Below are positions 7,419 through 29,479 of a DNA stretch of 64,000 nucleotides, in pieces (the first letter of the stretch is position 1; every line of letters begins with the position of its first letter). The translations under genes were made by a program, and so were the position numbers. The notes below the pieces were generated by a model. It ran no database searches. It was not told the DNA's origin and was given only the letters and a program-made list of their open reading frames with translations. The stretch lies in contig NZ_FQUU01000004.1 in assembly GCF_900129295.1 (NCBI RefSeq), forward strand, positions 62,001 through 126,000. The letters run 5' to 3'. The stretch is from Flavisolibacter ginsengisoli DSM 18119. GTDB lineage: Bacteria > Bacteroidota > Bacteroidia > Chitinophagales > Chitinophagaceae.

Positions 7419-7581
7419 AAACTTAACATTTAGGCACAAATTCATTACTAAAAATTCCGTGCCCGCACTTTGGAATAATTCAAAAAAGGTGAAATAAGGG
7501 ATATATAGCCAAACTTTTGGATTTGATGGTAATATGTCCTTAAAATACCTCAGCTCATCAGGTTCTTAGGGCTAAAAAGGG

Positions 7582-7589
7582 TACATTTG
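7582..7589 (+). promoter_or_regulatory. Putative gyrA -7 box TACATTTG
   Basis: Exact match to TAnnTTTG, 35 bases upstream of the gyrA ATG, in a 206-base divergent intergenic region. No clear -33 TTG. Confidence 0.4.
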
Positions 7590-7624
7590 CTGACCTTAAA
7601 AATCGCATTTAACAAGTCCCGAGA

Positions 7625-10219: not shown

Positions 10220-10239
10220 ATATTAAAAACAAGAAAACA

Positions 10240-11493: not shown

Positions 11494-11516
11494 TATTCGA
11501 TAGGTAAATAAATTTT

Positions 11517-11540
11517 AAAGCCTCCCCACCGGGAGGCTTT
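11517..11540 (+). terminator. Intrinsic terminator after the gyrA-TPR unit
   Basis: Stem GCCTCCC (11520-11526) and GGGAGGC (11531-11537) with loop CACC, preceded by AAA and followed by TTT ATTAATTAAT. Lies 24 bases after the TPR stop codon. Confidence 0.8.
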
Positions 11541-11601
11541 ATTAATTAATGAACTTCACTCAATGAAATGCAAAGTAAAATCCTTCTATACCTTTTCAAT
11601 T

Positions 11602-12366
11602 CTAGACTATAGTAATTTCAATTCCCATTCCCTTCAGACTCTCCACCATATGGTCGGAAATGCCACTGTCAGTGATGATTTGTTCAATATCTTCCAGGCC
11701 GCAGATTCTACCAAAGCCTCTTTTTCCAAATTTGGTCGAATCCGCAAGAACGATGGTCTTTTGAGAAGCCTTAATCATTTTTTTATTAAGCTGTGCCTCC
11801 ATCATATTGGTAGTAGTTAGCCCAAATTCAAGGTCTATTCCGTCCACGCCCAGGAAAAGTTTACTGCAGGAAAAATCCTCAAGGATCTTCTCTGCATAAC
11901 TGCCAGTAACAGACGAAGAACTTTTTCTTAATATTCCACCCAGTTGAATCACTTCTATTTCGGGGTGACGTATCAACTCCATAGCCACATTCAGCGCTGC
12001 TGTGATTACTGTGAGGCTGCCCTTAGGATAGATGTTCCTGGCTAGAGATAATACTGTTGTTCCGGAGGCAATAAGAATACAGTCATTAGGCTCAACAAGG
12101 TTGGCTGCGGCCTCACCAATATTGGATTTCTCGCCTGATTGTATCTTTTCTTTTTCTTTTACTGGCTTGTCTGCTGTATAAGGATTGCTCATTGTACCAC
12201 CACCATGGGTTCGAAATAAAAGGTGCTTATCCTCCAATAATTTCAGATCCTTTCGAATGGTTACAGATGAAACATTTAGTTCAGAACAAAGGTCAACAAC
12301 TTTCACATTGCCTTCTTTTCTCAATTTGGTGATGATATGCTGATGCCTGTCAGTTAGACTACTCAT
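11602..12366 (-). CDS. glpR: DeoR/GlpR-family transcriptional repressor
   Basis: N-terminal DeoR helix-turn-helix (RHQHIITKLRKEGNVKVVDL, then ELNVSSVTIRKDLKLLE), followed by the family junction FRTHGGG and a DeoRC sugar-phosphate sensor domain (DCILIASGTTVLSLARNI, VTGSYAEKILEDFSCSKLFLGVDGID, LADSTKFGKRGFGRIC). 254 aa is typical. GlpR of other bacteria is released from DNA by glycerol-3-phosphate; the divergent position next to glpD makes the same effector very likely here. It lies 211 bases from glpD across an AT-rich region with repeated TTTCGTTT motifs, probable operators for both genes. The symbol is assigned from context and family. Confidence 0.88.
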   Translation of the reverse strand: MSSLTDRHQHIITKLRKEGNVKVVDLCSELNVSSVTIRKDLKLLEDKHLLFRTHGGGTMSNPYTADKPVKEKEKIQSGEKSNIGEAAANLVEPNDCILIASGTTVLSLARNIYPKGSLTVITAALNVAMELIRHPEIEVIQLGGILRKSSSSVTGSYAEKILEDFSCSKLFLGVDGIDLEFGLTTTNMMEAQLNKKMIKASQKTIVLADSTKFGKRGFGRICGLEDIEQIITDSGISDHMVESLKGMGIEITIV

Positions 12367-12489
12367 AAGTTCTTTGAGGGTACAAAATAATAACGGGGAA
12401 TTTGAATTCCAATAATTCGTATCTAAAATATTTAAATAGGTTCTTTCCCCAAATGTGGAAAACTTATTATTATTAATTGTTTCATAATC

Positions 12490-12566
12490 CTTTCGTTTAT
12501 AAATAAAATTGTTAAAATTGCTTTCGTTTTGTTTAGTTTCATTAATAAAACAAAATAAACTGAAAC
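12490..12566. promoter_or_regulatory. Candidate GlpR operator region
   Basis: In the glpR-glpD divergent spacer, CTTTCGTTT occurs twice (12490-12498 and 12521-12529, 31 bases apart). The second copy starts a 20-base arm (12521-12540) that matches the reverse complement of 12547-12566 at 14 of 20 positions, with a 6-base centre. TTTC/GTTT repeats of this kind are typical DeoR-family binding sites. It ends 11 bases before the glpD ATG, where a bound repressor would block transcription. Confidence 0.55.
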
Positions 12567-12577
12567 ATATTTAAGGA

Positions 12578-14173
12578 ATGAATGATCTGCAATTTAAAGT
12601 GAATTCTATAGACAGGGAACGACTGGCTTTACAATTAGCTGATGAGTCAAAACAATGGGACGTACTTGTGATTGGTGGTGGGGCTACCGGTCTTGGAGTA
12701 GCCATGGATGCTGTAGCCAGGGGATATAATACCCTTTTATTAGAACAATCTGACTTTGCCAAGGGAACTTCAAGCCGGAGCACCAAACTAGTACACGGAG
12801 GTGTTCGTTACCTGGCGCAGGGTGACATTAGACTGGTGCGGGAAGCTAGTGTGGAAAGAGGACGTCTTTGCAGGAATGCTCCCCACCTTGTAAAGAATCA
12901 AACTTTTATCATTCCCATTTACAATTACTGGGATAAGATCAAATATACTTTAGGCCTTAAAATGTATGACTGGATTTCAGGCCGCCTGACACTTGGCTCT
13001 TCTGTTTTTGTTTCCAGGAAAAAGACCATTGAAAGCCTTCCAGGTATAAAACAGGAAGGTTTGCTGGGTGGTGTATTATACCATGACGGACAATTTGACG
13101 ATTCCAGGCTGGCTATTAACCTGGTACAAAGCATCATAGAAAAAGGCGGCTGTGCCATCAATTATATAAAGGTTACAGGCTTACTAAAAGACAATCAGGG
13201 AAAAATTGAAGGAGCTCTTGTGGTGGATACTGAAAACGGAAAAAATTTCCGGGTCCGTGCAAAAGCGGTGATTAATGCCACAGGTGTGTTTGTCGACGAT
13301 ATCCTTCATATGGATAATCCAAAGAGTTTAAAGAGCATATGCGTGAGCCAGGGTGTGCACCTGGTACTTGATAAAGCTTTTTATCCTTCAGAACATGCAT
13401 TAATGATACCGGAAACAAGCGATGGGCGTGTGTTATTTGCAGTGCCCTGGCATGATAAGGTGGTCCTGGGCACTACTGATACACCAGTGGAGGAAGCCTC
13501 CCTGGAACCCCAGGCGCTGGAAAAAGAGATCAATTTTATACTGGAAACTGCTGCGGATTATTTTACGAAGAAGCCTACACGCAGTGATGTGTTGAGTGTG
13601 TTTGCAGGCCTGCGTCCCCTGGCTGCTCCGCAGGGTGAAGAACAAACCACAAAGGAAATTTCAAGAAGCCATAAGATCATGGTTTCTGCTTCCCACCTTT
13701 TTACCATTCTTGGTGGTAAGTGGACGACATACCGAAAAATGGGAGAAGACATGATGAATCGCGTGGAAAAGGAGTTGCAATGGAAGCACCAAAAAACAAC
13801 CACTTCCCTGATGCACATTCATGGTTATGCGGAAGGAATGAACTGGAACGACCCACTGTACTTCTATGGCAGCGATTGCCAATTAATAAAAAAACAAATG
13901 AATGGCAGTTCTGGTCAATGGATAAGCGATAGTCTGAAGATTCATAAAATGCAGGTTCGCTGGGCTGTGGAGAATGAGATGGCAAGAACGGTGGAGGATG
14001 TGCTTGCCAGGAGAACTCGCGCCTTGTTACTGAATGCCGGTGAGAGCATTCGCATTGCCCCTGAAGTGGCAAGGATCATGGCCGAGGAGATGGATAAGGA
14101 CCAGGCCTGGCAAAAAGAGCAGGTTGAAAATTATACCAGTCTCGCTAACCAATATATTCTGAAAACAAACTAA
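12578..14173 (+). CDS. glpD: Glycerol-3-phosphate dehydrogenase (FAD-dependent)
   Basis: Oxidises sn-glycerol-3-phosphate to dihydroxyacetone phosphate and passes electrons to the quinone pool at the inner membrane. The dinucleotide fold [21 protein letters not shown] (29-49) binds FAD; the signature [17 protein letters not shown] follows at about 64-80, then [20 protein letters not shown] and [12 protein letters not shown] with the substrate Arg. The C-terminal DAO_C domain (about 390-530) is complete. 531 aa fits the aerobic GlpD type. First gene of the run leading to glpT (14-base gap) and the SusCD genes; the putative GlpR operator lies directly upstream. Confidence 0.96.
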
Positions 14174-14187
14174 AAGCGCTTGCTATA

Positions 14188-15519
14188 ATGGGATTGCTGA
14201 CTTATTTACAACCGCCGGCACATAAAGAGTTAATGCCAGCGAAAGAAGTGGATGAAGCGTATAAGAAAAAACGGATCCAGGTATTTGTTGGAATTTTTAT
14301 AGGTTATGCAGGTTATTACCTGGTGAGAAAAAACTTTTCTCTTGCCATGCCCGACCTTATTGAAAGAGGCTTTTCAAAGGGCGAACTGGGAATAGCTCTT
14401 TCAGGCGTTTCTATTGCTTACGGCATCAGCAAATTCCTGATGGGAAACTTATCCGACCGAAGTAATGCGCGTATATTCCTCCCCGTTGGACTCCTTTTAT
14501 CTGCACTTACAATGATAGCCATGGGAACAATCCCGTTTGCTCTTTCATCGATAGTGATCATGTTTAGCCTGCTTTTTATCAACGGTTGGTTCCAGGGAAT
14601 GGGATGGCCTCCCTGTGGAAGGGTAATGGTTCATTGGTTTTCGCTCAGGGAAAGAGGCGTGAAGATGTCCATCTGGAATGTGGCACATAATGTAGGAGGT
14701 GGATTGATCGGTCCACTGGCTATTGCAGGATTGGCCATTTTCGGCACCTGGCAAAGCAAGTTTTACTTCCCGGGAATGATCGCCATTTTTATTGCTTTCA
14801 TTGCGTATTTACTAATCAGGGATACACCCCAATCTTGCGGGTTGCCACCCATTGAAACATATAAGAATGACCATCCTGTAGATTATTCACATCAACATGA
14901 AAAAGAATTATCAGCAAAGCAGATCTTCATAGATTATGTTTTGGTTAACAGGGTGTTGTGGTACATAGCTTTTGCCAATGCCTTTATATATTTGGTGCGT
15001 TATGGGGTTTTGGATTGGGCACCGACTTATTTAAAGGAAGCAAAGGGGTTTACAGTCAATGAAACAGGCTGGGCCTATTTTGCTTATGAATATGCAGGTA
15101 TTCCCGGAACATTATTATGTGGATGGTTAAGTGACAAAGTATTCAGAGGCAGGCGAGCTCCGGCAACCATTATTTACATGTTATTAGTACTGGCAGCAGT
15201 TATCGTTTACTGGAAGAATCCTGCGGGGCATCCTTCTATAGATAATATTGCCCTGATCATAATTGGCTTCCTGATCTATGGTCCTGTAATGCTTATTGGT
15301 GTACAGGCCCTTGACCTGGTTCCCAAAAAAGCTGCCGGAACTGCAGCAGGATTAACAGGTTTATTCGGATACCTGGGCGGAGCTCTATTTGCAAATATTG
15401 CTATGGGATATGTTGTAGATGCCTGGGGATGGAATGGTGGCTTTTTAGTTATGATTGCCGCCTGCGTGCTTGCTATATTTTTTACCGCCTTAACCTGGAA
15501 TAAAGAAAAAGCTTTTTAA
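14188..15519 (+). CDS. glpT: Glycerol-3-phosphate:phosphate antiporter (MFS)
   Basis: Organophosphate:Pi antiporter family of the major facilitator superfamily, about 12 membrane segments in 443 aa. Landmarks: an N-terminal [16 protein letters not shown] segment with the phosphate-binding Arg, [14 protein letters not shown] in the 2-3 loop, [22 protein letters not shown] (with the GWPPCGR signature), [16 protein letters not shown], and a second Arg in [19 protein letters not shown]. It brings G3P from the periplasm in exchange for phosphate. Placed 14 bases after glpD, it supplies GlpD's substrate from the periplasmic hydrolysis encoded downstream. UhpT-type hexose-phosphate transport is the alternative but fits the context less well. 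Confidence 0.92.
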
Positions 15520-15547
15520 TCATTTATAATCTTTAATCAACTTGCGT

Positions 15548-18500
15548 ATGAGATCATTTGCGACTGCTGTAGAAAAACTTTGCACTCCGAGAGTGCTGCT
15601 GTTTTTCTTCCTGCTACTAACCGGCTCCTGGGTATCCGCACAGGAAAAAACAGTGACAGGCCAGGTTAGAAATTCTGAAGACAAAGCACCGGTAGTTAGA
15701 GCTACAGTGCAGGTAAAAGGAACCAAAGTATTTACCAGCACGGATGAAAAAGGACATTTTTCAATTAAAGCATCTGACCAACAGGTTCTTGTTGTTTCTG
15801 CTGTAGGCTACAGGCCTCTTGAAAAACGGGTTGGTAACCAATCTGTGCTCAACTTTGATATGATCAGTACTAATACTGAGATGGAAAGTGTTGTAGTAAC
15901 AGCCCTGGGAATTAAAAGAGAAGAAAAAGCCCTTGGTTATTCTGTTGCTAAAGTGAAAGGAGAGGAGTTGACAGAAGCACTTTCCAGCAACTGGACAGAT
16001 GCCTTGTCGGGAAAAGTAGCAGGCCTTAACCTGGTGCGTTCTAACAGCGGACCTGCAGGATCTAATAAAATCATTCTCAGGGGTGAAAGCAACCTTACCG
16101 GTGGTAGTGAAAATGAGGCATTGATAGTAGTTGATGGAGTTGTTATTAACCAGGGAAGTGGCAGAAGAAGTGCTGTGGGGGGTGAAACTGCATATGGTAC
16201 AGGCAGCGATAATATGCCTGCAGATTATGGAAGCGGTCTTAATGATATAAACCCTGAAGACATTGAATCCGTGAGTGTATTAAAAGGGCCCGGTGCAGCA
16301 GCCTTATATGGACAGCGTGGCGCGAATGGAGCTATCATTATTACTACAAAATCAGGAAGTGCAAAAAGAAAAGGTTGGGGAGTCACCCTTAATTCCAATG
16401 CATCAATGGAAAAGGTGAACAGGTGGCCTGATTTCCAGTATGAATACGGCCAGGGTAATGATGGCAAACCTTATTATTCTTTTGGTGCATCCGTAGATGG
16501 ACCTAGTACGAGCGCCACCAGTTCGGCTTATGGTCCCAGGTTTGAAGGACAATCATTTTTTCAGTTTGACCCTGTAACGCAAACGCAGGGAACCGAAAGA
16601 ACTCCATGGGTGCCCTATCCAAATAAAATAAAAAACTATTTCAATACAGGTAATACTGTTACCAATTCAATCAGCGTGGATGGTGGTACTGACAAAACCA
16701 CTGCCCGTTTTTCTGTTACTAATGTTTCAAATAAATGGATCATACCTAATACTGGTTATAAAAGAAATACAATTGCTTTATCTGTAAACTCAAAAGTTAA
16801 TGAGAAGCTCCAGATTTCCTCAAAGATCAATTATACCAATAAATGGAGCGACAATCTTCCGGGTGCTGGCTATGGTAACCAGTCCATCATGTACTGGTTT
16901 ATTTTCTGGCAGCCGAATGCTGACCTGGATTGGTTAAGAAATTATTGGAGAAATGGGCTGGAAGGAAGAAAGATCATGTATCCTTACAGTTCCTTCCCTG
17001 AAAACCCTTATGCCGTAGCCTACGAATTTATCAATCGCTCGAATCGTCATAACATTACCGGCAATGTGCAGGCAAGCTATAATTTCTCCAAAGAGTTAAG
17101 TTTGCAGGTAAGAACATCTCTTGATCTTTCCTATGAGCAGCGTGCACAAGAGCGTCCATTTGATGCAGGTTCAAAATACCAGCTAGGTAGTTTTAGAACT
17201 CAAAATATCTTTTCACAGGAAGCTACAACCGATTTCCTATTGAGGTATGCTAAAAAACTAAAAGATTTTGATTTTTCCGTAACTGCAGGTGGTAGTGCAT
17301 TAAGAAATACATACAACAAAGATGAAGTACGTGCAGACTCATTGATTTACCCGCAGATCTACTCAATGTCCAATGCAGCAGGCCCACTTGTAACATTACC
17401 ATACAATACCAAATACGCTATTAACAGTTTTTACGGACTCGTATCAGGCGCATTTAAAAACTTCCTGTTTCTCGATCTTACTGCAAGGCAGGACTGGAAC
17501 AGTGTACTGGCAACTCCAACAAGAACAGAAAATGCAGGATTTTTTTACCCCTCTGCCAACTTAAGCTTTATTGCTTCCGAAGTACTAAAGCTTCCGTCAT
17601 CGATTGATTTCGCAAAACTTAGATTTTCTGCTTCTGGTGTTGGTAGTGGTGGTACCACTCCCTATCGTACAGCATATAATTATACTTCTGCAGGAAGTTT
17701 ATACAGCGGAGGATTACAAAACCCGTCTATATTGGCTAATCCAGACCTGAAATCATTAAGAACAGTTAGTTATGAAACAGGAATGGAGATAAAGATGTTC
17801 CATAATCGCCTGAATATGGACCTTGCATTATATACCGGGAATACTAAGGACCAGATCCTGGAACGTATACTTGACCGTTCTTCCGGATATACCAAAGTAT
17901 TGATCAATGCGGGTAAGGTTAATAATAAAGGGGTTGAAGTATCCCTCAATGGTACTCCCATATCTTCCAAGAAAGGGTTGAAATGGAATACAGGCATTGT
18001 ATTCTCTGCAAATAGTAATACCATTAAAGAACTGGCTGATAGTTCTGTGGTGCTGCAAACAGGCCCGGTAGGTGGTGGTCAGATCGTTGCCAAAGTAGGA
18101 GGCAGTATGGGAGATCTTTATGGAAGAGGGTATGAGCGTGCACCTGACGGCCAGGTGGTTTATGATGCCAATACCGGATTCGCAAAGATCACCCAGGATG
18201 TTATTTTCCTGGGAAATACAATTCCCAAATGGAAGCTTGGATTCAATAATGAATTTCAATATAAAGGATTCCGTCTTAATCTTTTATTTGATGGACAATA
18301 TGGTGCAGTGGCACATTCCCTGATGCACTACAAGCTGGCAGAACAGGGTAAAACGAAAAACACTTTACCAGGTAGATATAATGGCATTATCGGTAATGGA
18401 GTAGTTATGGGAACAGATGGCAAATACAAACAGAATGATGTAATTGCTACTGATATTGATGAATACTACCGTTCGCATTTTGGAATTGACAATGCGGAAG

Positions 18501-18760
18501 GAAGTACATTCAGCACTGACTTCATCAAATTCAGGGAAGCAAGACTTGACTATACTTTACCAACCAGCATTACCAAAAAAATAGGTATTCAACGGGCAAC
18601 ATTAGGTGTTTATGGACGTGACCTGTATATCTGGTCCAAATGGCCAATATTCGATCCTGAATTCGGAACCGTTAGCGGAACAGATATTGTTCGTGGTTTC
18701 GAAGTTGGTCAGTTTCCATCAACCCGCACAATGGGAGTGAATCTAATTGTTGGATTTTAA
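15548..18760 (+). CDS. SusC/RagA-family TonB-linked outer-membrane transporter
   Basis: Signal peptide ending near VSA-QEK, a carboxypeptidase-like beta domain (TVTGQVRNSEDKAPVVRATV..), the MESVVVTALGIKREEKALGY stretch of SusC proteins, a plug domain with ALSGKVAGLNLV and IESVSVLKGPGAAALYG (the LYG motif), and a C-terminal barrel ending in LIVGF. 1070 aa is standard. ATG 15548 is preferred to a TTG at 15542. With the SusD gene 10 bases downstream it forms an import pair that moves oligomers across the outer membrane using TonB energy. Being sandwiched between glpT and periplasmic phosphodiesterases suggests a glycerol-phosphate-containing substrate. Confidence 0.95.
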   Translation: MRSFATAVEKLCTPRVLLFFFLLLTGSWVSAQEKTVTGQVRNSEDKAPVVRATVQVKGTKVFTSTDEKGHFSIKASDQQVLVVSAVGYRPLEKRVGNQSVLNFDMISTNTEMESVVVTALGIKREEKALGYSVAKVKGEELTEALSSNWTDALSGKVAGLNLVRSNSGPAGSNKIILRGESNLTGGSENEALIVVDGVVINQGSGRRSAVGGETAYGTGSDNMPADYGSGLNDINPEDIESVSVLKGPGAAALYGQRGANGAIIITTKSGSAKRKGWGVTLNSNASMEKVNRWPDFQYEYGQGNDGKPYYSFGASVDGPSTSATSSAYGPRFEGQSFFQFDPVTQTQGTERTPWVPYPNKIKNYFNTGNTVTNSISVDGGTDKTTARFSVTNVSNKWIIPNTGYKRNTIALSVNSKVNEKLQISSKINYTNKWSDNLPGAGYGNQSIMYWFIFWQPNADLDWLRNYWRNGLEGRKIMYPYSSFPENPYAVAYEFINRSNRHNITGNVQASYNFSKELSLQVRTSLDLSYEQRAQERPFDAGSKYQLGSFRTQNIFSQEATTDFLLRYAKKLKDFDFSVTAGGSALRNTYNKDEVRADSLIYPQIYSMSNAAGPLVTLPYNTKYAINSFYGLVSGAFKNFLFLDLTARQDWNSVLATPTRTENAGFFYPSANLSFIASEVLKLPSSIDFAKLRFSASGVGSGGTTPYRTAYNYTSAGSLYSGGLQNPSILANPDLKSLRTVSYETGMEIKMFHNRLNMDLALYTGNTKDQILERILDRSSGYTKVLINAGKVNNKGVEVSLNGTPISSKKGLKWNTGIVFSANSNTIKELADSSVVLQTGPVGGGQIVAKVGGSMGDLYGRGYERAPDGQVVYDANTGFAKITQDVIFLGNTIPKWKLGFNNEFQYKGFRLNLLFDGQYGAVAHSLMHYKLAEQGKTKNTLPGRYNGIIGNGVVMGTDGKYKQNDVIATDIDEYYRSHFGIDNAEGSTFSTDFIKFREARLDYTLPTSITKKIGIQRATLGVYGRDLYIWSKWPIFDPEFGTVSGTDIVRGFEVGQFPSTRTMGVNLIVGF

Positions 18761-18770
18761 TTTTTTAAAA

Positions 18771-20300
18771 ATGAATAAGACCAAAAAAATAATACTCGGA
18801 ATAGCTGTTATGTGCAGCGTTGTAGTTAGTTCCTGCACTAAAGACTTCCAGGAGATCAATACAGATCCTAATAATACAAGCAGTGCCTTGCCGCAGCAAT
18901 TGCTGGCACCTGCACTGGTAAGCACATTGTCCTATAACATGCTACGCAACCGCAATTTCAATAATGAACTCATGCAGGTTACTGTGGATATGAGTGATGG
19001 AGATGGCAGGGTGTTCAGGTATGATTACCGCGCCAACTGGTCGGATTACCTGTATAATGGCTGGTATTCAGAACTGACCAACTTTAAGGATATATACAAG
19101 TTTGCAAGTGAAGAACTGAACTATAATAAATCCTATATGGGCATATCATTGATCTGCCAGTCATGGATCTATTCCTTGCTCACAGACACCTATGGCGATG
19201 TTCCCTATTTTGAATCCAACCTGGCAAGGGACAGTAGTATCTATGAACCAAAGTTTGACCGCCAGAAAGATATTTACCTTGATATCTTCAAAAAGCTGGA
19301 GGCTGCTGATACATTGTTAGCAAGTAAAAAAAGTATACAGGCTTCAAGTGATCCGGTATTTTATGGTGATGTTACCAAGTGGCAAAAGTTTGGCAATTCT
19401 CTTTACTTAAGGTTATTGTTAAGACTCTCCGGCAAAGCTGAAGTGTCACAGGAAGTAATTGCCAAGATGAAACAGATCGTTGATAACCCTTTGGACTATC
19501 CGATCATGACAAGCAATGAAGAATCTGCCATTTTAAGATGGACAGGGGTTGCGCCTTATACATCACCCTTTACTACGGTCAGGGAACAGGATTTCAGGGC
19601 ACCGGGCATTGCCAGTTTCTTTATAGACAACCTTTCTGTCTGGCACGATCCAAGAATTGATGTTACCTATGGAACAGGCTCTCCTACCAAGACCAACAGG
19701 TGGGCTATTGCACCCTACCAGGGAGCTTATGAAGGTGTGCCAAGTGGGTATGCTATAGGGGATAATCCAACGCGTAAATCTTATTTCTATTCTTCTTCCA
19801 ATAACGGTAATACAGGGCCAAGCCTGGTAAATGAACCACTTACAGGCATGATTATGAACTATGCAGAATTGCAGTTCATTCTCGCAGAGGCAGCTGCAAA
19901 GGGTTACATTGATGGATCTGCAGAAACCTATTACAATAATGGAGTGGAAGCAAGCATCAAACTTTGGTTGCCTACCTGGCCTGTTGCAGTTACGGATTAT
20001 CTTGCTGCAGCCGATATGCAATGGAACGATACTCAGAGCATTGACCAGAAAATGGAAAAGATTCATTTGCAAAAGTACTATGCACTGTTTCTCGTTGACC
20101 TGCAGCAATGGTTTGAATACCGCCGCACTGGCCACCCTATTTTACCAAAAGGAACAGGATTGAGAAACAATGGAGAAATGCCTGCCAGGATGACTTACCC
20201 GGTGTATGTTCAATCAACCAATCCAACCAATTACAAAGCTGCTGTAGCTGCACAGGGTCCTGATGTCATATCAACTCCTGTATGGTGGCAAAAACCCTAA
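18771..20300 (+). CDS. SusD/RagB-family surface lipoprotein (SusD-like_2 type)
   Basis: Lipoprotein signal MNKTKKIILGIAVMCSVVVSSC with the lipidated Cys at 22, followed by TKDFQEINTDPN as in most SusD proteins. The body shows SusD-like_2 landmarks: NWSDYLYNGWYSELTNFKDI, QSWIYSLLTDTYGDVPYFES and MNYAELQFILAEAAAKG (the helical TPR part). It covers the SusC barrel and binds the ligand on the cell surface. 509 aa from the ATG at 18771; a TTG at 18747 lies inside the susC 3' end and is less likely. Ligand chemistry cannot be read from the sequence. Confidence 0.93.
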   Translation: MNKTKKIILGIAVMCSVVVSSCTKDFQEINTDPNNTSSALPQQLLAPALVSTLSYNMLRNRNFNNELMQVTVDMSDGDGRVFRYDYRANWSDYLYNGWYSELTNFKDIYKFASEELNYNKSYMGISLICQSWIYSLLTDTYGDVPYFESNLARDSSIYEPKFDRQKDIYLDIFKKLEAADTLLASKKSIQASSDPVFYGDVTKWQKFGNSLYLRLLLRLSGKAEVSQEVIAKMKQIVDNPLDYPIMTSNEESAILRWTGVAPYTSPFTTVREQDFRAPGIASFFIDNLSVWHDPRIDVTYGTGSPTKTNRWAIAPYQGAYEGVPSGYAIGDNPTRKSYFYSSSNNGNTGPSLVNEPLTGMIMNYAELQFILAEAAAKGYIDGSAETYYNNGVEASIKLWLPTWPVAVTDYLAAADMQWNDTQSIDQKMEKIHLQKYYALFLVDLQQWFEYRRTGHPILPKGTGLRNNGEMPARMTYPVYVQSTNPTNYKAAVAAQGPDVISTPVWWQKP

Positions 20301-20349
20301 GCTATCGTACTATTTTTAAAACCATGTTGTAAAACATAATCATACTACA

Positions 20350-21849: not shown

Positions 21850-21907
21850 GGGACATTTAATAACGGCTCGGTTTACCTTAGGCCGGTTTAGTCATTATAA
21901 ATAAGAA

Positions 21908-21943
21908 GCCAGGTTAGATAATAACATCTTTGTCTAGCCTGGC
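21908..21943 (+). other. Hairpin inside the operon, before the phosphoesterase gene
   Basis: GCCAGGTTAGA (21908-21918) pairs with TCTAGCCTGGC (21933-21943), one G-T pair, 14-base loop, followed by CAATTAAAT with no long T-run. A second weaker GGCC-type hairpin sits at 21863-21887. In this 108-base gap, the largest within the run up to the alpha-galactosidase gene, it may lower read-through or mark an mRNA processing point. Confidence 0.4.
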
Positions 21944-21957
21944 CAATTAAATCCAAC

Positions 21958-23379
21958 ATGCAAAGAAGACGATTTCTTCAAAATTTTGCCTGGCTTACAG
22001 GAGGATTATTAGTTGGCTGCAATAAAAAGCTCTATTCATCAAAGGAAGAAGCAAATCTTTTAAAGGGTGTTGTCAGATCTGGCAACAGGGGAGTAGCTAA
22101 TGTTGTTGTCAGCGATGGATATAACCTGGTGCTTACAGATAAATCAGGTGCCTATGAATTTGCACTGCATCCCGAAGCAACTTCTGTTTTTATATCAACG
22201 CCCTCAGGGTATAGTTTCATAGAAGAGAAAAGTATTGCAAGGCATTACCACCTTGTACAGGATATTGAGAACAGGAAGGCAGTAAATTTTGAATTACAAC
22301 AATTGGATAAAGATGATAACGAACACCAGTTCATCATCTGGGCAGACCCACAGGTAAAAAACGCCAAAGATGTGGAGAAAATGATGGCTCATTCCGTGCC
22401 GGATGTTCAGAAGATCATAGCTGCTGCAGGTTCAAGCGCCCTTATACATGGTATTACGGTTGGTGATATAGTTTGGGATGAACATAAACATTTTGCTGAC
22501 TATGATATAGCCGTTGGCAAAATGGGCATTCCGTTTTTCCAATGCCTGGGCAACCATGACATGGATTACAATAAAGGAGGTGATGAAACCTCTGATGACA
22601 CCTTCCAGGAAAAATATGGCCCTACCTGGTATTCATTTAACAGGGGCAAAGTGCATTATGTGGTGATGGATAATGTTAGGTACCTTGGCAAAGACCGGGA
22701 TTATGATGGATTCATACCACAACACCAGCTCGACTGGCTTCAAAAGGATTTGTCTTATATACCTAAAGAAAATCTCATCATACTTTGCCTGCACATCCCT
22801 GTTCATAATGGTGTGAAGAATAATTCAGATCTCTATGCTTTGTTGCAGGAAAGAAATGTACATATTATGTCGGGCCATACACATTATCACCGCAATGTGA
22901 TAAAGGATAATATTTATGAGCACAACCATGGCACAGTATGTGGCGCCTGGTGGACTGGTCCCATCTGTGAAGATGGTACACCTTGCGGCTACGGGGTTTA
23001 TAAAGTAAATGGTACGGAACTAAGCTGGCATTACCAGGCTACAGGTGAAACAGCAGATTATCAGCAAAAGATATTTGTAACCGATTATAATGCCACCCAA
23101 AAGCAGGTACAGGTAAATATCTGGAACTATGACCCTGCATGGAAAACTGAATATTTTGTAGATGGAGTAAGCAAAGGAGAACTGGAACAGTTTATAGGCC
23201 TTGATCCCGGGGCTTACGCTACAATGCTGGGCCCTAATCTTCCCCAACCGCGCAGCTTTGCTGAACCTAAACAGACTGACCATTTATTCAAGGCATTTAT
23301 TCCAGTTAACACCAAAAATATTGTAGTGAAAACTACTGATCGATTTGGAAAAGTGTATGAATCTTCCTTATCAATATGA
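21958..23379 (+). CDS. Calcineurin-like phosphoesterase (lipoprotein, Tat-type signal)
   Basis: Starts MQRRRFLQNFAWLTGGLLVGC: a twin-arginine motif joined to a lipobox with Cys at 21. An N-terminal beta domain (MetallophosN-like, LLKGVVRSGNRGVANVVVSDG) is followed by the metal site: WADPQV, GDIVWD, LGNHDMD, LCLHIPVHN and SGHTHYHRN, which supply the Asp/Asn/His ligands for two metals. A C-terminal beta domain (about 360-470) completes the architecture. It would hydrolyse phosphomono- or diesters in the periplasm. Its last four bases overlap the next start (ATGA), which implies translational coupling to the SGNH esterase. Confidence 0.92.
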   Translation: MQRRRFLQNFAWLTGGLLVGCNKKLYSSKEEANLLKGVVRSGNRGVANVVVSDGYNLVLTDKSGAYEFALHPEATSVFISTPSGYSFIEEKSIARHYHLVQDIENRKAVNFELQQLDKDDNEHQFIIWADPQVKNAKDVEKMMAHSVPDVQKIIAAAGSSALIHGITVGDIVWDEHKHFADYDIAVGKMGIPFFQCLGNHDMDYNKGGDETSDDTFQEKYGPTWYSFNRGKVHYVVMDNVRYLGKDRDYDGFIPQHQLDWLQKDLSYIPKENLIILCLHIPVHNGVKNNSDLYALLQERNVHIMSGHTHYHRNVIKDNIYEHNHGTVCGAWWTGPICEDGTPCGYGVYKVNGTELSWHYQATGETADYQQKIFVTDYNATQKQVQVNIWNYDPAWKTEYFVDGVSKGELEQFIGLDPGAYATMLGPNLPQPRSFAEPKQTDHLFKAFIPVNTKNIVVKTTDRFGKVYESSLSI

Positions 23380-24065
23380 AACCTATGCGTACCAAAATTT
23401 TTAATGTTGTTCCCTTTCTGATATTTTCTTTTTTTGCCAATGCCCAGGCAACCAGGTGGGACAGTACTTACCGGCCTGCCAGTTATTCACTGAAAGTTGC
23501 ACAGTTCAAAAGCTTTCCCAATAGCTGTAATGATTATATTTTCCTGGGCAACAGCATTACTGCCGGTGTAGACTGGAACGAATTGCTGGAAAGAACCAAT
23601 GTCCGCAACAGGGGCATATCAAGTGACATAACATTTGGTGTATTGGAAAGATTAGATGAGGTCATTGAAGGACAACCGGCAAAAGTGTTTATCCTTATAG
23701 GAATCAATGATATCTCGCGTAACATTCCTGACAGCTTTATTGTATCCAATTACAAAAAGATCATTGACAGGATAAAAGCAGGCAGTCCGAAAACATCCAT
23801 TTACATGCAAACCCTGCTTCCTGTTAACAATGAATTCACACAGTTCAAAAATCATTACAATAAAGATGCACATATTACATATGTCAATACAGCATTAAAA
23901 CAGTTGGCCAGGGATTGTAAGGTGAACCTGATCGACCTGAATCCAAATTTCCAGGATGCCAATGGTAAACTGGATAAGAAATACACAGAGGACGGATTGC
24001 ACCTTAACATCGAAGGATATAAACTGTGGGCATCCATTTTAAAGAAAGGTAATTATTTAAACTAG
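23376..24065 (+). CDS. Periplasmic SGNH/GDSL-family esterase
   Basis: Signal peptide ending FFANAQA. The four SGNH blocks are present: FLGNSITAGVDW (Ser nucleophile), GISSDITFG (oxyanion Gly), LIGINDIS (oxyanion Asn) and DGLHLNIEGY (Asp-x-x-His dyad). 229 aa is usual. Family members remove acyl or acetyl esters from glycans and lipids. In this operon plausible ester substrates are acyl chains of glycerolipids or D-alanyl/acetyl groups of a decorated glycerol polymer; this is inference. The start overlaps the phosphoesterase stop by 4 bases. Confidence 0.9.
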   Translation: MKPMRTKIFNVVPFLIFSFFANAQATRWDSTYRPASYSLKVAQFKSFPNSCNDYIFLGNSITAGVDWNELLERTNVRNRGISSDITFGVLERLDEVIEGQPAKVFILIGINDISRNIPDSFIVSNYKKIIDRIKAGSPKTSIYMQTLLPVNNEFTQFKNHYNKDAHITYVNTALKQLARDCKVNLIDLNPNFQDANGKLDKKYTEDGLHLNIEGYKLWASILKKGNYLN

Positions 24066-24070
24066 ATCTT

Positions 24071-24991
24071 ATGAAGCATATAGTTTATTGTATGGCAACA
24101 GCTTTGCTGGCATTTTCCTGTGCTGACACTAAAAAAGTAACAGGAAATAAACATGCAACAGTAGCTTTTCCTGCCTTTGATGAAGAAGCGCATAGGGGAG
24201 GCAGGGGATTGATGCCAGAGAATACTATTCCGGCCATGCTGAATGCTATTGACCTGGGTGTAACCACACTTGAAATGGATACGCATATTACCAAAGACAA
24301 TAAGGTAATCTTATCTCACGATCCCTATTTCAATGAGAATTTTACCACGACACCGGAAGGAAATACATTGACTAAAGCAGAGGCAGTACAACGCCTGCTG
24401 TATACAATGACCTATGACAGCATTCAGAAATATGATGTTGGATTAAAGCCTTATGCGGCCTTTCCCAGGCAAAAGAAAATTGCTGTACACAAACCCTTGC
24501 TGGCCGATTTGCTGGATGCAACAGAAAAACATGCAGGGGAAACAGGAAAGGCCATGTTTTATAATATCGAGATCAAGTCGAAGCCGGAGAATGACGGAAA
24601 AAAACATCCTCCTGTTGAAGCATTCGTTGACCTTGTCATGCAGGTGATACTGCAGAAAGGAACTGAGGCCCGCACAGTCATCCAGTCCTTTGATCCGAGG
24701 GCTTTACAGGTAATGCATCGCAAATATCCTTCTGTTGCCACTTCCTTATTAATTGAGGATTATGATAAACGTTCAGTGGAAGAACAGTTACAGCAATTGG
24801 GCTTTACACCATTTGTCTACAGCCCGCATTTTTCATTGGTCACTCCGCAACTGGTGCAACAATGCCGTTCCAGGCAAATGAAGCTGGTACCATGGACCAT
24901 CAACACCCTTGAACAAATACAACAGCTAAAGAACACGGGTGTTGATGGCATCATTACCGATTACCCCGACCTGTTTCAACAATTGAAATAA
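24071..24991 (+). CDS. Glycerophosphodiester phosphodiesterase lipoprotein
   Basis: GlpQ-type GDPD with lipobox LLAFSC (Cys17). TIM-barrel landmarks: EAHRGGRGLMPENTIPA (catalytic HR and metal-binding PENT), TLEMDTHITKDNKVILSHDP (Glu/Asp ligands and catalytic His) and NIEIKSKPEND, ending LVPWTINTLEQIQQL and DGIITDYPD. It cleaves glycerophosphodiesters to sn-glycerol-3-phosphate plus an alcohol; some GlpQ enzymes also attack poly(glycerol phosphate) teichoic acids. Placed on the periplasmic side it would feed GlpT. It lies 5 bases after the SGNH gene and 18 before the alpha-galactosidase gene. Confidence 0.95.
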   Translation: MKHIVYCMATALLAFSCADTKKVTGNKHATVAFPAFDEEAHRGGRGLMPENTIPAMLNAIDLGVTTLEMDTHITKDNKVILSHDPYFNENFTTTPEGNTLTKAEAVQRLLYTMTYDSIQKYDVGLKPYAAFPRQKKIAVHKPLLADLLDATEKHAGETGKAMFYNIEIKSKPENDGKKHPPVEAFVDLVMQVILQKGTEARTVIQSFDPRALQVMHRKYPSVATSLLIEDYDKRSVEEQLQQLGFTPFVYSPHFSLVTPQLVQQCRSRQMKLVPWTINTLEQIQQLKNTGVDGIITDYPDLFQQLK

Positions 24992-25009
24992 TCCTATTAC
25001 CCTTAATAG

Positions 25010-27175
25010 ATGATAATGTATCGTTCTATTTCGTTATTGCTACTAATTGTTTCTTTTTCTGTTAGGATATGCGCCCAGGTGGCACCTATTGTTATTGAAA
25101 CAGCAAAAACAAGTATTGTTTATAAAGTAAAGAAAAACGGGAGATTGTACCAGGCATACCTGGGAGAGAAATTGAAAGATGCCGCTGAATATGCTTCCTT
25201 AGCGGATACACGGAACGAAGCCTATATTGGTGCCGGCATGGAGGACCTGTTCACACCTGCTATACAAGTGGAACATGCAGATAAGAACCCATCCCTGGAA
25301 TTACATTTTCAGTCAGTGCAGGTAAAACAACCAGATAAGAATACCACCATTACTTCCATTTTGCTGATAGATCCAAAATATGCTTTTGAAGTAAGATTAA
25401 ACTTTGCTGCCTTTTACCGAGAGAATATAATAAAAACCTGGACAGAGATCAGCAACAAAGAGAAGGGTAGCGTATGGTTGCAAAATTATGCCTCCTCCCT
25501 TTTACACCTGGATGCACAGCAATACTGGTTAACGCAGTTTCATGGTGACTGGGGCATGGAAGCCAGGATGGAAGAAACCCAATTAACAGCAGGAATTAAA
25601 GAGATCGATTCCAAACTGGGAACACGGGCCAATAAGTTTCTTTCTCCTATGTTCCTGTTGGCATTAAATGCACCTGCTAAAGAAAATACCGGTGATCTAC
25701 TTGCAGGCACACTAGCCTGGACAGGCAATTATAACCTGCACTTCGAGATTGACAATATAAATTCCCTGAGGATACTTAGTGGAATCAATTCCTATGCTTC
25801 TGCCTATGAACTAAAGCCAGGTGCCCTGTTTGTAACTCCTGTTTTTATATTCACGTTTTCAACACACGGTAGAGGAGAGGCTACACGTAATCTTCACCAA
25901 TGGGCAAGGCATTATGGGATAATGGATGGTGATCGTCCACGTTATACATTGCTCAATAACTGGGAGGCTACGGGATTTAATTTTACACAGGATACACTGG
26001 TGAAATTGTTTGATGATGCTGCCAAACTGGGAGTAGATCTTTTCTTACTCGATGATGGCTGGTTTGGCAATAAATACCCGCGAACTGATGCCAGGGCTGG
26101 CCTGGGCGATTGGCAGGAAAACAAGCAAAAGCTGCCGGGAGGTATTGGTTACCTCGTCAAAGAAGCGGAAAGTAAAGGGGTGAAGTTTAGTATCTGGCTG
26201 GAACCTGAAATGGTGAATCCCAAAAGTGAATTATATGAACAACACCCGGAGTGGATCATCAGGCTGCCCAACAGGGATGAAAATTACCAGCGCAACCAAT
26301 TAGTCCTTGATCTAAGTAATCCCCGGGTACAGGATTTCATTTTCAACATGGTAGATAATATGCTCACCTCCAATCCTCATTTGGCCTATATCAAATGGGA
26401 TTGCAACCGTACTATGACCAATAGTTATTCCAACTATTTAGGCAACAGGCAGTCCCATTTGTTTATTGATTATGTCAATGGTTTATATAAAGTATTGGAG
26501 CGCCTGCATAGCAAACATCCGCACCTGCCAATGATGCTATGTTCTGGTGGCGGCGGCCGTACAGATTATGGCGCTTTAAAATACTTCACTGAATTCTGGC
26601 CAAGTGACAATACCGATGGACTGGAAAGAGTATATATCCAATGGGGGTATTCCTATTTTTTCCCAGCACTTGCAGTTGCCAATCATATCACTTCATCAGG
26701 CAAGCAATCCTTAAAGTTCAGGACTGATGTGGCCATGATGGGGAAGTTGGGATATGATATAAATATCAAAGAGCTGAAGCCTGAAGAACTTGAATTCAGC
26801 AAGGCTGCTGTACAGAATTATAAGCGTATCAGTCCTGTTATCTGGTATGGAGACCTGTACCACCTCGTCTCTCCATATGATGAGAACAGGGCAGTGCTGA
26901 TGTATGTTGACAGCACACAAAACAAGGCTGTGGTTTTTAACTACAATCTCAATACACGCTTTGGCGAACAGCTTGATGAAGTAAAATTGCAGGGACTGGA
27001 TGCAAATAAAAAGTATAAAATAGAAGAGATCAATTTAATGCCTGGCTCTAAACCTGTAACAATGTATCATGACAAGATATATAGCGGTGATTATTTAATG
27101 AAGGTTGGATTGCAATTTAATAAAGGAAGACCATTGGCATTAAGCAGTATTGTTTTGCAGTTAACTGCCCAATAA
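25010..27175 (+). CDS. Secreted alpha-galactosidase, GH36 family
   Basis: Signal peptide MIMYRSISLLLLIVSFSV.. cut near ICA-Q. N-terminal beta-sandwich, then the GH36 barrel: FLLDDGWFG, FSIWLEPEMVNPKSELY, the nucleophile Asp464 in IKWDCNR and the acid/base Asp533 in WPSDNTDG, 69 residues later as in known GH36 enzymes; a C-terminal beta domain ends the 721 aa. It releases terminal alpha-galactose. In a raffinose context this would be ordinary, but here no other sugar enzyme is present and all neighbours handle glycerol phosphate. Galactosyl-glycerol compounds or galactose-decorated teichoic acid are therefore the likelier targets. Confidence 0.95.
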   Translation: MIMYRSISLLLLIVSFSVRICAQVAPIVIETAKTSIVYKVKKNGRLYQAYLGEKLKDAAEYASLADTRNEAYIGAGMEDLFTPAIQVEHADKNPSLELHFQSVQVKQPDKNTTITSILLIDPKYAFEVRLNFAAFYRENIIKTWTEISNKEKGSVWLQNYASSLLHLDAQQYWLTQFHGDWGMEARMEETQLTAGIKEIDSKLGTRANKFLSPMFLLALNAPAKENTGDLLAGTLAWTGNYNLHFEIDNINSLRILSGINSYASAYELKPGALFVTPVFIFTFSTHGRGEATRNLHQWARHYGIMDGDRPRYTLLNNWEATGFNFTQDTLVKLFDDAAKLGVDLFLLDDGWFGNKYPRTDARAGLGDWQENKQKLPGGIGYLVKEAESKGVKFSIWLEPEMVNPKSELYEQHPEWIIRLPNRDENYQRNQLVLDLSNPRVQDFIFNMVDNMLTSNPHLAYIKWDCNRTMTNSYSNYLGNRQSHLFIDYVNGLYKVLERLHSKHPHLPMMLCSGGGGRTDYGALKYFTEFWPSDNTDGLERVYIQWGYSYFFPALAVANHITSSGKQSLKFRTDVAMMGKLGYDINIKELKPEELEFSKAAVQNYKRISPVIWYGDLYHLVSPYDENRAVLMYVDSTQNKAVVFNYNLNTRFGEQLDEVKLQGLDANKKYKIEEINLMPGSKPVTMYHDKIYSGDYLMKVGLQFNKGRPLALSSIVLQLTAQ

Positions 27176-27193
27176 GTTTAAGAAAACAAACTA

Positions 27194-27201
27194 TAGTTTT
27201 G
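27194..27201 (+). promoter_or_regulatory. Putative glpK -7 box TAGTTTTG
   Basis: Exact TAnnTTTG match in the 75-base gap after the alpha-galactosidase gene, 49 bases before the glpK ATG. It suggests that glpKF can also be transcribed separately. Confidence 0.4.
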
Positions 27202-27250
27202 AAAATTCTGAAATAACAACGTACCATTATAAAATTTTATAAGCAAGGCA

Positions 27251-28750
27251 ATGTCGAAATATATCTTATCATTTGACCAGGGAACTACCAGCTCAAGGGC
27301 CATAGTATTTAACAAGCAGGGAGAAGTAGTGTCTGTTGCACAAAAAGAGTTCACCCAGTTTTTCCCTGAGCCGGGGTGGGTTGAACATGATGCGAATGAG
27401 ATCTGGTATACACAGTTGGGTGTTGCAGCGGAGGCAGTGGTTAAGGCTGGTCTCTCCACACAGGATATCGCCGCCATTGGTATCACCAATCAACGGGAGA
27501 CAACAGTGGTTTGGGACCGTGCCACACATCAGCCAATACATAAAGCCATCGTATGGCAGGACAGGAGAACGGCATCCTATTGCGATGAGCTGAAAAGGCA
27601 GGGTCATGCAGAAGATATACAAAAACGAACAGGCCTGATCCCGGACGCTTATTTTTCTGCCACCAAGGTCAAATGGATATTGGATAATGTTGAAGGCGCA
27701 AGAGAAAAAGCAAACAGGGGAGAACTCTGTTTTGGTACTGTTGACGCATGGTTATTATTCAAGCTTACAAATGGAAAAGTACATGCAACGGATGTCACCA
27801 ATGCTTCCCGGACCATGTTGTATAATATCAATTCACTGCAGTGGGATGAAGCTATGCTGAAACTCTTTGATATTCCTGCTGCCATTCTTCCTGAGGTTCG
27901 CTCCAGCAGTGAGATCTACGGTTATACCGACCAGGTACTAACGGGTACCAATATTCCCATTAGTGGCATTGCCGGCGATCAGCAGGCAGCCTTGTTTGGC
28001 CAGATGTGCACGCAACCAGGCATGGTGAAAAACACCTATGGTACCGGTTGTTTCATGTTAATGAATACAGGTACGCAGCCCATCTTATCCAAAAACAACC
28101 TGCTTACGACCATAGCCTGGAAAATAGGTGAAACAACCACCTATGCTTTGGAAGGAGGTGTATTCATAGCCGGCGCGGTAGTGCAATGGTTACGAGATGG
28201 CCTGGGAATTATAAAAACATCCGGTGAAGTGGAAAAACTGGCTGCTTCTGTTGAAGACAATGGTGGCGTTTATTTTGTTCCTTCATTTGCCGGGCTTGGG
28301 GCTCCTTACTGGAACCAGCATGCGCGGGGAACCATGATGGGTATTACCAGGGGTACTACAGCTGCACATATTGCCCGTGCTTCTATTGAAAGTATAGCCT
28401 TTCAAACCATGGATGTACTCCAGGCAATGAATGCAGATGCATCTATTCCTATCAAACAGATAAGGGTTGATGGCGGAGCTACTGTGAATGACCTGTTAAT
28501 GCAGTTTCAAAGCGATATGCTGGAGTGCTCCGTCGTTCGGCCTAAGATCACGGAGACCACTGCAGCAGGTGCGGCCTACCTGGCCGGCCTGGCCATTGGA
28601 CTTTGGAAAGACCTTGCAGAAATAGAGCAGTACTGGAAAGAGGAAAGAACATTTGAGCCATCCATAGAAACTACAAAGCGTCAAAAACAAATTCTGAAAT
28701 GGCACACTGCTGTTAAAGCAGCACAGGTATGGGGTGAACTTGAAAACTAA
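27251..28750 (+). CDS. glpK: Glycerol kinase
   Basis: FGGY-family kinase that makes sn-glycerol-3-phosphate from glycerol and ATP, trapping glycerol that enters through GlpF. Landmarks: [14 protein letters not shown] near the start (phosphate-binding loop 1), [25 protein letters not shown] (adenosine motif), [19 protein letters not shown], and the FGGY signature region [20 protein letters not shown]. The 499-aa length matches GlpK (about 500) rather than other FGGY kinases. Followed by glpF after 15 bases. Its product is the substrate of the GlpD encoded at the start of the locus. Confidence 0.97.
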
Positions 28751-28765
28751 TCATCAAACATTCGT

Positions 28766-29479
28766 ATGTCTATATTTATATCTGAACTCATTGGAACTGC
28801 ACTGCTCATTATTTTAGGTAATGGAGTGGTGGCTAACGTAGTACTCAACAAGACAAAGGGCAATAATGGCGGCTGGATCGTTATTACATTTGGCTGGGCC
28901 ATAGCTGTATTTGTAGGTGTGTTTGTTGCTGCTAAAACTAGTGGCGCACATTTGAATCCTGCCATCACTTTAGCCTTTGCCTACCTGGGTAAGATCAATA
29001 TCGATAAAATTCCTCTTTACCTGGGAGGCCAATTTGCAGGTGCAATGATTGGTGCATTCATTGTGTGGCTTACCTACCAGTTACACTTTAATGCAACGGA
29101 AGACAAGACCTTAAAGCTGGCTTGTTTTGCTACTATACCTGCCATCAGGAATACCACGCATAATTTGATCAGCGAGATCGTAGGAACTTTCATACTTGTG
29201 ATCAGTGTATTGTATATGGCTTCACCAGACAATAGCCTGGGAGCCCTCGATGCATTGCCTGTAGCATTATTGGTATTGGGAATAGGATTGAGCGTGGGCG
29301 GAACTACCGGCTATGCCATCAATCCAGCAAGGGATCTCGGTCCGCGCATCATCCATGCCATTTTGCCGATGAAAAATAAAGGAACAAGTGATTGGAGCTA
29401 TAGCTGGATTCCTATTGTTGGTCCCATCATAGGAGCTTTCCTGGGAGCTGTAGTTTTTCATGTGATCAGTAAGCTTTGA
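28766..29479 (+). CDS. glpF: Glycerol facilitator (aquaglyceroporin)
   Basis: Major intrinsic protein with six membrane segments and both half-helix motifs: SGAHLNPAITLAFA (first NPA) and GYAINPARDLGPR (second NPA). The Asp after the second NPAR is characteristic of glycerol-conducting GlpF proteins as opposed to water-only aquaporins, which supports glycerol transport, as does the position 15 bases after glpK. 237 aa, slightly shorter than E. coli GlpF (281). Last gene of the locus; no strong terminator is visible after it. Confidence 0.95.
   Translation: MSIFISELIGTALLIILGNGVVANVVLNKTKGNNGGWIVITFGWAIAVFVGVFVAAKTSGAHLNPAITLAFAYLGKINIDKIPLYLGGQFAGAMIGAFIVWLTYQLHFNATEDKTLKLACFATIPAIRNTTHNLISEIVGTFILVISVLYMASPDNSLGALDALPVALLVLGIGLSVGGTTGYAINPARDLGPRIIHAILPMKNKGTSDWSYSWIPIVGPIIGAFLGAVVFHVISKL

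Follow-up and report, generated by a model that had tools for sequence, protein, structure and literature searches.

A SusCD Import Pair Within a Predicted Glycerol-3-Phosphate Regulon of Flavisolibacter ginsengisoli and Other Bacteroidota

Introduction

SusCD pairs, composed of an outer-membrane TonB-dependent transporter (SusC) and a surface lipoprotein (SusD), are the signature of glycan feeding by Bacteroidota, and for many of them the substrate is unknown. Regulation by an extracytoplasmic function (ECF) sigma factor together with FecR is among the ordinary forms of their control. The use of glycerol phosphates is exemplified by the glp regulon of Escherichia coli (including glpTQ), where the transporter GlpT and an exported glycerophosphodiester phosphodiesterase (GDPD) are combined with glpD, glpK, and glpF under a DeoR-family repressor. 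The locus described here brings both kinds of system together. It occupies positions 11602–29479 of a 64,000-nucleotide stretch of the genome of Flavisolibacter ginsengisoli DSM 18119 (hereafter, the window), and it holds a SusCD pair among glp genes, divergent from a DeoR-family regulator.

Like the E. coli glp regulon, this locus encodes GlpT, a GDPD, the glpD, glpK, and glpF products, and a DeoR-family regulator. Unlike it, the locus includes TonB-dependent outer-membrane import, and its regulator is nearer to AgaR. Its novelty is judged to reside in the combination of a route similar to that of E. coli glpTQ with a SusCD outer-membrane step and an exchanged control. No description of a SusCD pair inside a glp regulon was found in the open-licence literature, in agreement with an earlier note on this DNA, made from the sequence alone, whose author knew of no described system of this form. 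A SusCD system for phosphorus compounds is nevertheless in print. PusCD from Flavobacterium johnsoniae is induced by phosphate depletion, and, in the excerpted account of it, its cluster PUSII includes a FecR-like regulator, while PusD2 belongs to pf07980/pf14322 (PMC8115612). As far as that excerpt goes, both systems hold a SusCD pair beside phosphodiesterases or phosphomonoesterases rather than glycoside hydrolases (a metallophosphoesterase, MPE, and a GDPD in the window), and they differ in the glp catabolic genes, the DeoR-family regulator, and the PF12771-type SusD of the window.

Recurrence of the SusCD–glp Linkage

The locus is best read as an operon leading from the outer membrane to glycolysis for glycerol-phosphate compounds and controlled within the glp regulon, a reading to which we assign a probability of about 0.7. 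Twelve open reading frames were found by ORF listing and Pfam/NCBIfam models, one regulator gene on the minus strand and eleven divergent genes on the plus strand, in the order given in Table 1. The spacing of the latter ranges from a 4-base overlap (MPE/SGNH esterase) to 108 bases (DUF5689–MPE), exactly as the earlier note had described, and 211 bases separate the regulator from glpD. The susC (TIGR04056) and susD genes are adjacent, as in polysaccharide utilization loci (PULs). The conserved carbohydrate-active enzymes of a PUL were not found, the GH36 gene standing alone and having no counterpart in the fetched loci (L031–L198).

A sample comprising 146 genomes of the same family was scanned for relatives of the window SusD, which gave 53 matching places outside the window, and 40 of these were fetched with about 20 kb each. 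In 10 of these 40 loci (L039, L040, L041, L044, L045, L048, and L055–L058), the SusCD pair is surrounded by glp genes, with a binomial probability of 6e-12 to 5e-9 if relatedness is ignored and 1–2% is taken as the expected rate, a rough and unmeasured guess. On the regulator side, the best 80 of 558 orthologue loci contain SusCD in at least 26 cases, the MPE in at least 23, and the GDPD in at least 34. These counts are lower bounds, because no flank was longer than 10 kb and 8 of the 80 records were under 15 kb; in Daejeonella lutea, for example, SusCD (L174) lies just beyond the fetched flank (L146). The sampling was anchored on SusD, the regulator, and the MPE, and the frequencies are not those of nature.

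The SusCD–glp arrangement takes at least five gene orders across three families, and the module formed by SusCD, DUF5689, MPE, SGNH esterase, and GDPD recurs with glpD, glpT, glpK, and glpF. Loci from Flavisolibacter and Terrimonas (L091, L093, L098) have a layout like that of the window. The order in Rufibacter (L106, L107, L113, L167) is glpR-glpD-glpK-glpF-glpT-susC-susD, and that of Pontibacter (L171–L173, L175, L176) is glpD-(glpK-glpF)-glpT-susC-susD followed by MPE, GDPD, and SGNH, with a convergent glpR at the far end. In D. lutea (L174), susC-susD-DUF5689-MPE-GDPD-glpT-SGNH forms its own operon, convergent to glpF-glpK-glpD, and Flavihumibacter soli (L182) holds the module in yet another order. 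An MPE search of 395 genomes of the class returned 12 genomes at E <= 1e-90, including that of the window. One other family, probably Sphingobacteriaceae, as its MPEs group with that of D. lutea, accounts for seven of them, and in six of these, SusCD, MPE, GDPD, and SGNH occur together (L189–L194); this set was not seen in the four remaining loci of the search (L195–L198). A shuffled order with kept content is the pattern shown by a functional module, and a private fusion of unrelated operons was rejected because the linkage recurs in several orders. The neighbourhood search proposed in the earlier note retrieved SusCD and GDPD with glp genes in, for example, Terrimonas, Pontibacter, Rufibacter, and D. 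lutea.

The MPEs of these loci form a well-supported clade (35 rows, support 100/99) that includes the window protein and comprises 32 glp-linked and 3 unlinked members (L190, L192, L194), and the 18 other MPE rows, all outside it, are not glp-linked. The MPE of L183 was left out of the set owing to stops in its stretch.

Several variants of the arrangement were also observed. Six loci (L118, L119, L130, L136, L145, and L151; three from Niastella, two from Longitalea, and one other) hold the MPE with glpD/glpK/glpF and no SusCD in the fetched flank, that is, the enzyme set without the import pair. Two tandem SusD-DUF5689 sets (7141-10234 and 16679-19885) flank glpD-glpT in L044, and a GFO/IDH/MocA oxidoreductase with an RR N-terminus lies inside two Pontibacter operons (L172, 5784-7172; L173, 5518-6909).

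A Predicted Common Operator and the Apparent Exchange of SusCD Control

The regulator is accompanied by glpD within the fetched flank in 69 of the best 80 of 558 orthologue loci. From this gene context, it probably senses glycerol-3-phosphate, and it most likely acts as a repressor.

An operator motif, agTTTCgtTTTgTTTtnTTT, was obtained de novo from 64 non-redundant glpR-glpD gaps (thinned from 88; those of L074 and L118 were left out because of their length). It resembles the presumed consensus of AgaR sites. The exact AgaR-like pattern TTTCRTTTYRTTT was rejected as a universal site, as it occurs in only 9 of 81 upstream regions, that of the window included, and a weight matrix was therefore used instead. 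The window site, GCTTTCGTTTTGTTTAGTTT, whose gap belongs to the training set, scores 22.3, compared to 95% and 99% levels of 7.4 and 11.0 in 686 control upstream regions, and its sequence occurs nowhere else in the genome in exact form. The idea of a further operator in this genome was rejected (one other near match with 3 mismatches versus two matches for the reversed control), as was that of operators inside the window operon, where no site ahead of another gene stands out.

The matrix was also applied to the 350-base regions upstream of susC genes, with the 99th percentile of 866 controls (13.2) as the threshold. Among the separately transcribed susC promoters, those of L174 (17.0), L180 (18.5), L190 (19.3), L194 (17.5), and L193 (16.2) exceed this value, and those of L183 (11.3), L191 (5.7), and L192 (3.6) fall below it. 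The 39 susC promoters outside glp loci reach 9.4 at most, with a median of -0.6 (Mann–Whitney versus these eight, 4e-7, relatedness ignored); L183, first grouped with the promoters outside glp loci, was counted among the eight, and L195 joined the 39. Among the glp-linked loci, 27 of 32 score at or over 13.2, many of them at training gaps. In a family-held-out test, where the matrix was trained on 18 Chitinophagaceae gaps only and 12 susC rows were scored with 599 controls, the promoters of L174, L180, L190, and L194 reached 16.0–20.9, above all controls. They represent four of the eight from other families, and the susC operons of L190 and L194 are unlinked to glpR, which lies ~61 and ~73 kb away. 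Genes outside glp loci (L195, L178, L179, L181) were not prominent, with 77, 589, 161, and 578 of the 599 controls scoring as high. These three control sets led us to reject the operator as a general promoter signal. As expected of a GlpR regulon, and as judged by sequence, the predicted operator is common to glp and to some separate susC promoters.

Control by ECF sigma factors and FecR is frequent among relatives that lack the operator. It was examined in 67 loci (40 SusD-anchored and 27 hand-picked from those with SusCD; L098 and L111 duplicate L055 and L058), the genes being called by Pfam in L031 and L034 and elsewhere by similarity to these two. None of the 32 glp-linked loci (two genomes counted twice) showed ECF/FecR genes upstream, versus 18 of 35 others; in the SusD-anchored loci alone, the counts are 0 of 10 versus 15 of 30 (Fisher, 0.006). 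No ECF/FecR gene was detected by Pfam/NCBIfam among the genes of the window region either. The operator alone occurs in 29 of the 67 loci, ECF/FecR alone in 18, both in none, and neither in 20, counts that are partly circular, as discussed below; the corresponding figures for the 40 SusD-anchored loci are 8, 15, 0, and 17 (Fisher, 0.016). Both L192 and L183, without a strong operator, hold ECF/FecR genes, which are also present in L195, from a genome with no regulator match at E <= 1e-80.

The SusCD loci controlled by ECF sigma factors and FecR thus share the SusC/SusD pair with the glp-linked ones, and two of them (L031 and L034) hold close homologues of the window pair, but the glp-linked loci lack ECF/FecR upstream and any conserved glycoside hydrolase. 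An STN domain was found by Pfam on the SusC of L031 only of these two, and not on that of the window; with the N-terminal extension of the L031/L034 SusC as the probe, matches were obtained in five SusC proteins. Since the operator and ECF/FecR do not co-occur in the 67 loci, it seems that the usual control of SusCD has given way to that by the DeoR-family regulator. The proposal of the earlier note that the import pair is under a glp regulator is therefore supported, the operator of the glpR-glpD gap recurring before some separate and even unlinked susC operons.

Enzymes of the Locus and Their Likely Substrate

The recurrence of MPE, SGNH esterase, and GDPD with GlpT, GlpD, GlpK, and GlpF, in several orders and families, points to glycerophosphodiesters or glycerol-phosphate polymers as a carbon source, in line with the glycerol-phosphate substrate advanced in the earlier note. 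The MPE model (predicted local distance difference test, pLDDT, 90) is closest to the folds of Rv0805 (E 4e-12) and the glycerophosphodiesterase GpdQ (E 2e-8), at 13-16% identity, whereas no solved relative was found by sequence search. Its metal-site motifs are invariant in 35 aligned sequences, with motif I as DxQ instead of the usual DxH. The closest solved structure to the GDPD is 3ch0 (1.6e-68), and those closest to the SGNH esterase are 6njc (entered as sialate O-acetylesterase / lysophospholipase L1) and 7pzg (lysophospholipase L1). Six of 35 glp-type loci (L044, L172, L173, L175, L176, L193) also encode a phospholipase D (PLD)-like protein, between DUF5689 or SusD and the MPE; among the fetched loci, it was seen in glp-linked ones only. 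Taken together, this enzyme set fits glycerophosphodiesters, phospholipid remains, or glycerol-phosphate polymers, without choosing among them.

One special case of this reading, possible although doubtful, is that the ligand is a glycerol-phosphate polymer, for example the teichoic or lipoteichoic acid of neighbouring Gram-positive bacteria. The polyanion would be bound by SusD and DUF5689 and cut by the MPE or the PLD-like protein, the SGNH esterase would remove acyl or alanyl esters and GH36 alpha-galactose, and the GDPD would free glycerol-3-phosphate. SusCD pairs usually serve oligomers, the GDPD also matches 5t91 (8e-20), presumably the teichoic acid-active enzyme of B. subtilis, and DUF5689 weakly resembles nucleic-acid-binding OB folds. 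The esterase, the phosphodiesterases, and, in the window, GH36 would suit a decorated phosphodiester polymer. However, deacylated phospholipids suit the same enzymes, the esterase is closest to lysophospholipase L1 and sialate O-acetylesterase structures, and GH36 is absent from the fetched relatives.

The last point also bears on GH36 itself, which the earlier note had counted as part of the unit. The gene does lie in the window operon, but it has no match in any of the fetched loci, so that it looks like an addition of this genome. An ordinary alpha-galactoside locus caught in a glp operon by chance, with this gene as the key enzyme, would leave the recurrent SusCD–glp linkage unaccompanied by that enzyme in every fetched relative; GH36 was rejected in this role, and such a locus is the least probable of the readings considered.

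Only slightly less improbable is a SusCD pair importing nucleic acid or nucleotides, with the MPE and DUF5689 as nucleic-acid handlers and a secondary glp linkage. The DUF5689 model (pLDDT 89) weakly matches OB-type (HIN) and lamin-tail folds, and a DUF5689 protein is, in the excerpt available, among those reported essential for natural transformation in Riemerella (PMC8459023). In addition, the accessory PLD-like protein weakly resembles nucleases. Nevertheless, no nucleotide-use genes are present among the operon families, and the recurrent partners are GDPD, GlpT, GlpD, and GlpK instead.

Finally, the locus could be devoted to phosphate scavenging, phosphorus being the gain and phosphate starvation the trigger, as in PusCD of Flavobacterium, which likewise combines SusCD with phosphodiesterases and phosphomonoesterases in the excerpted account (PMC8115612). 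This is unlikely, as the operator is that of the glpR-glpD gap, the operon carries glpD, glpK, and glpF for carbon, and PusD2, according to the same excerpt, is of pf07980/pf14322 and not of PF12771 like the window SusD. Furthermore, a system relying on GlpT would be more likely to gain carbon than phosphorus, because this transporter is a phosphate antiporter, exchanging glycerol-3-phosphate for phosphate.

Evidence Weighed Against a glp-Controlled System

Several observations weigh against a dedicated glp-controlled import system. As for the regulator, labelled glpR-like in the earlier note, its DeoR-family membership and the company of glpD stand, while the GlpR models fail: it scores 107/331 with that of E. 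coli GlpR (PRK10906) and 181/300 with the haloarchaeal one. Its closest NCBIfam model is AgaR (NF040755), at 249/260, also under the cut-off. Given the scores for AgaR and E. coli GlpR, the protein is a GlpR by context, not by sequence.

Regarding the import pair, 30 of the 40 fetched SusD-relative loci lack glp genes, and the fetched flanks of 54 of the best 80 of 558 glpR loci lack SusCD. The SusCD homologues do not always lie with unrelated sugar genes, the outcome that the earlier note had set as a refutation, yet the eight closest SusD homologues (69-75% identical, L031–L038) are all outside glp loci; DUF5689 is present in all eight and an MPE in five, more distant (41-44%) and of another clade. 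Mapping the glp label onto a SusD tree of 73 rows takes 16 changes, and well-supported branches force at least 9 of these. This discordance means that the type of pair is no proof of its substrate. The comparison of the MPE and SusD trees implies that the enzyme tracks the glp module, and that either the import pair has been exchanged or moved repeatedly, or the glp linkage has been lost repeatedly.

With respect to the operator, the counts of its occurrence and of its exclusion from ECF/FecR loci are partly circular: of the 29 loci with the operator, 20 contain a gap used in training (19 were scored there, and L180 at susC), and two are duplicates. Because 19 were scored on training gaps, ten of the 29 are independent of training. 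Five of the 32 glp-linked loci (L041, L044, L172, L176, L191) remain under 13.2. In the family-held-out test, 7, 11, 28, and 292 of the 599 controls scored as high as the susC promoters of L193, L191, L183, and L192, respectively, and only one of five Pontibacter glpD promoters was above all controls, the other four having 7 to 36 controls higher. Lastly, a 15-base pattern yielded 21 sites in nine genomes versus 14 for its reverse, an excess too small to define the full regulon.

Proposed Mechanism

The sequence of steps that we infer builds on the gene content and its recurrence, the recurrence of the operator, and its non-overlap with ECF/FecR. The DeoR-family regulator would bind TTTCG(T/A)TTTGTTT-type repeats between its own gene and glpD, and would be released by an intracellular intermediate, probably glycerol-3-phosphate. 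The ligand would be captured at the surface by SusD and DUF5689 and imported by SusC. Once in the periplasm, it would be stripped and split by the MPE, the SGNH esterase, and the GDPD into glycerol-3-phosphate and glycerol, which GlpT and GlpF would take inside. GlpK and GlpD are then expected to convert them to dihydroxyacetone phosphate, which enters glycolysis.

On a broader scale, it may be tentatively proposed, at somewhat less than even odds, that this is a dedicated glp-controlled SusCD system by which environmental Bacteroidota feed on other organisms' phospholipids or glycerol-phosphate polymers, teichoic acid being one option, and that it was assembled several times by moving SusCD pairs from the control of ECF sigma factors to that of a DeoR-family glp regulator.

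Features of the Window

The features of the locus are collected in Table 1. The listed start codon of susC is TTG, with an ATG two codons further on. Scans for sigma-70-like promoters and for terminators returned 67 sites (50.1 in shuffles, sd 7.5) and 22 sites (15.6, sd 4.3), respectively, and every plus-strand terminator-like site of the operon is intragenic. Within the first susC codons (15582-15596), a small G+C stem is followed by a T-rich stretch, which may be due to chance. A strong terminator-like hairpin of 11 pairs lies 3' of the regulator gene (11516-11541, minus strand), toward a TPR-like gene (10240-11493). Elsewhere in the window, a HAD-IIIB acid phosphatase (PF03767; 3422-4210, plus strand) is encoded ~8 kb 5' of the glp operon. 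A 2042-residue kinase-like protein (32320-38448, minus strand) contains an extended series of nearly identical repeats (HAMP-like by eye) and apparent receiver domains, and it adjoins a regulator/kinase-like ORF (30966-32270).

Table 1. Features of the SusCD–glp locus in window coordinates. Paired bit values are score/cut-off, and bits derive from Pfam or NCBIfam models.
Feature	Position	Strand	Evidence
DeoR-family regulator (GlpR by context, nearest AgaR by model)	11602..12366	-	DeoRC PF00455, 174 bits; HTH_DeoR PF08220, 53 bits
Predicted operator GCTTTCGTTTTGTTTAGTTT	12520..12539	+	First base 58 bp 5' of glpD start; score 22.3
glpD-type glycerol-3-phosphate dehydrogenase	12578..14173	+	DAO PF01266 and DAO_C PF16901; best NCBIfam PRK12266, 302/360, below equivalog cut-off
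glpT, glycerol-3-phosphate transporter	14188..15519	+	TIGR00712, 729/633
SusC, outer-membrane TonB-dependent transporter	15542..18760	+	TIGR04056, 551/368
SusD-like surface lipoprotein	18774..20300	+	SusD-like_2 PF12771, 356/27
DUF5689 protein, lipoprotein-type N-terminus by eye	20350..21849	+	PF18942, 96 bits
MPE, RR (Tat-like) N-terminus by eye	21958..23379	+	MetallophosN/C PF16370/PF16371
SGNH/GDSL esterase, signal peptide by eye	23376..24065	+	Lipase_GDSL_2 PF13472, 106 bits
GDPD, lipoprotein-type N-terminus by eye	24071..24991	+	PF03009, 127 bits
GH36 alpha-galactosidase	25010..27175	+	Melibiase PF02065, 350 bits; closest solved structure AgaB 4fnq
glpK, glycerol kinase	27251..28750	+	TIGR01311, 747/590
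glpF-type MIP channel	28766..29479	+	TIGR00861, 187/171

Significance

A recurrent, operator-marked set within glycerol-phosphate catabolism gives a testable substrate class to loci bearing SusCD, DUF5689, and a metallophosphoesterase. It also suggests that SusCD pairs can switch from the control of ECF sigma factors to that of a cytoplasmic, metabolite-sensing regulator, and it suggests a route by which the membrane and wall debris of dead cells may be returned to carbon flow.

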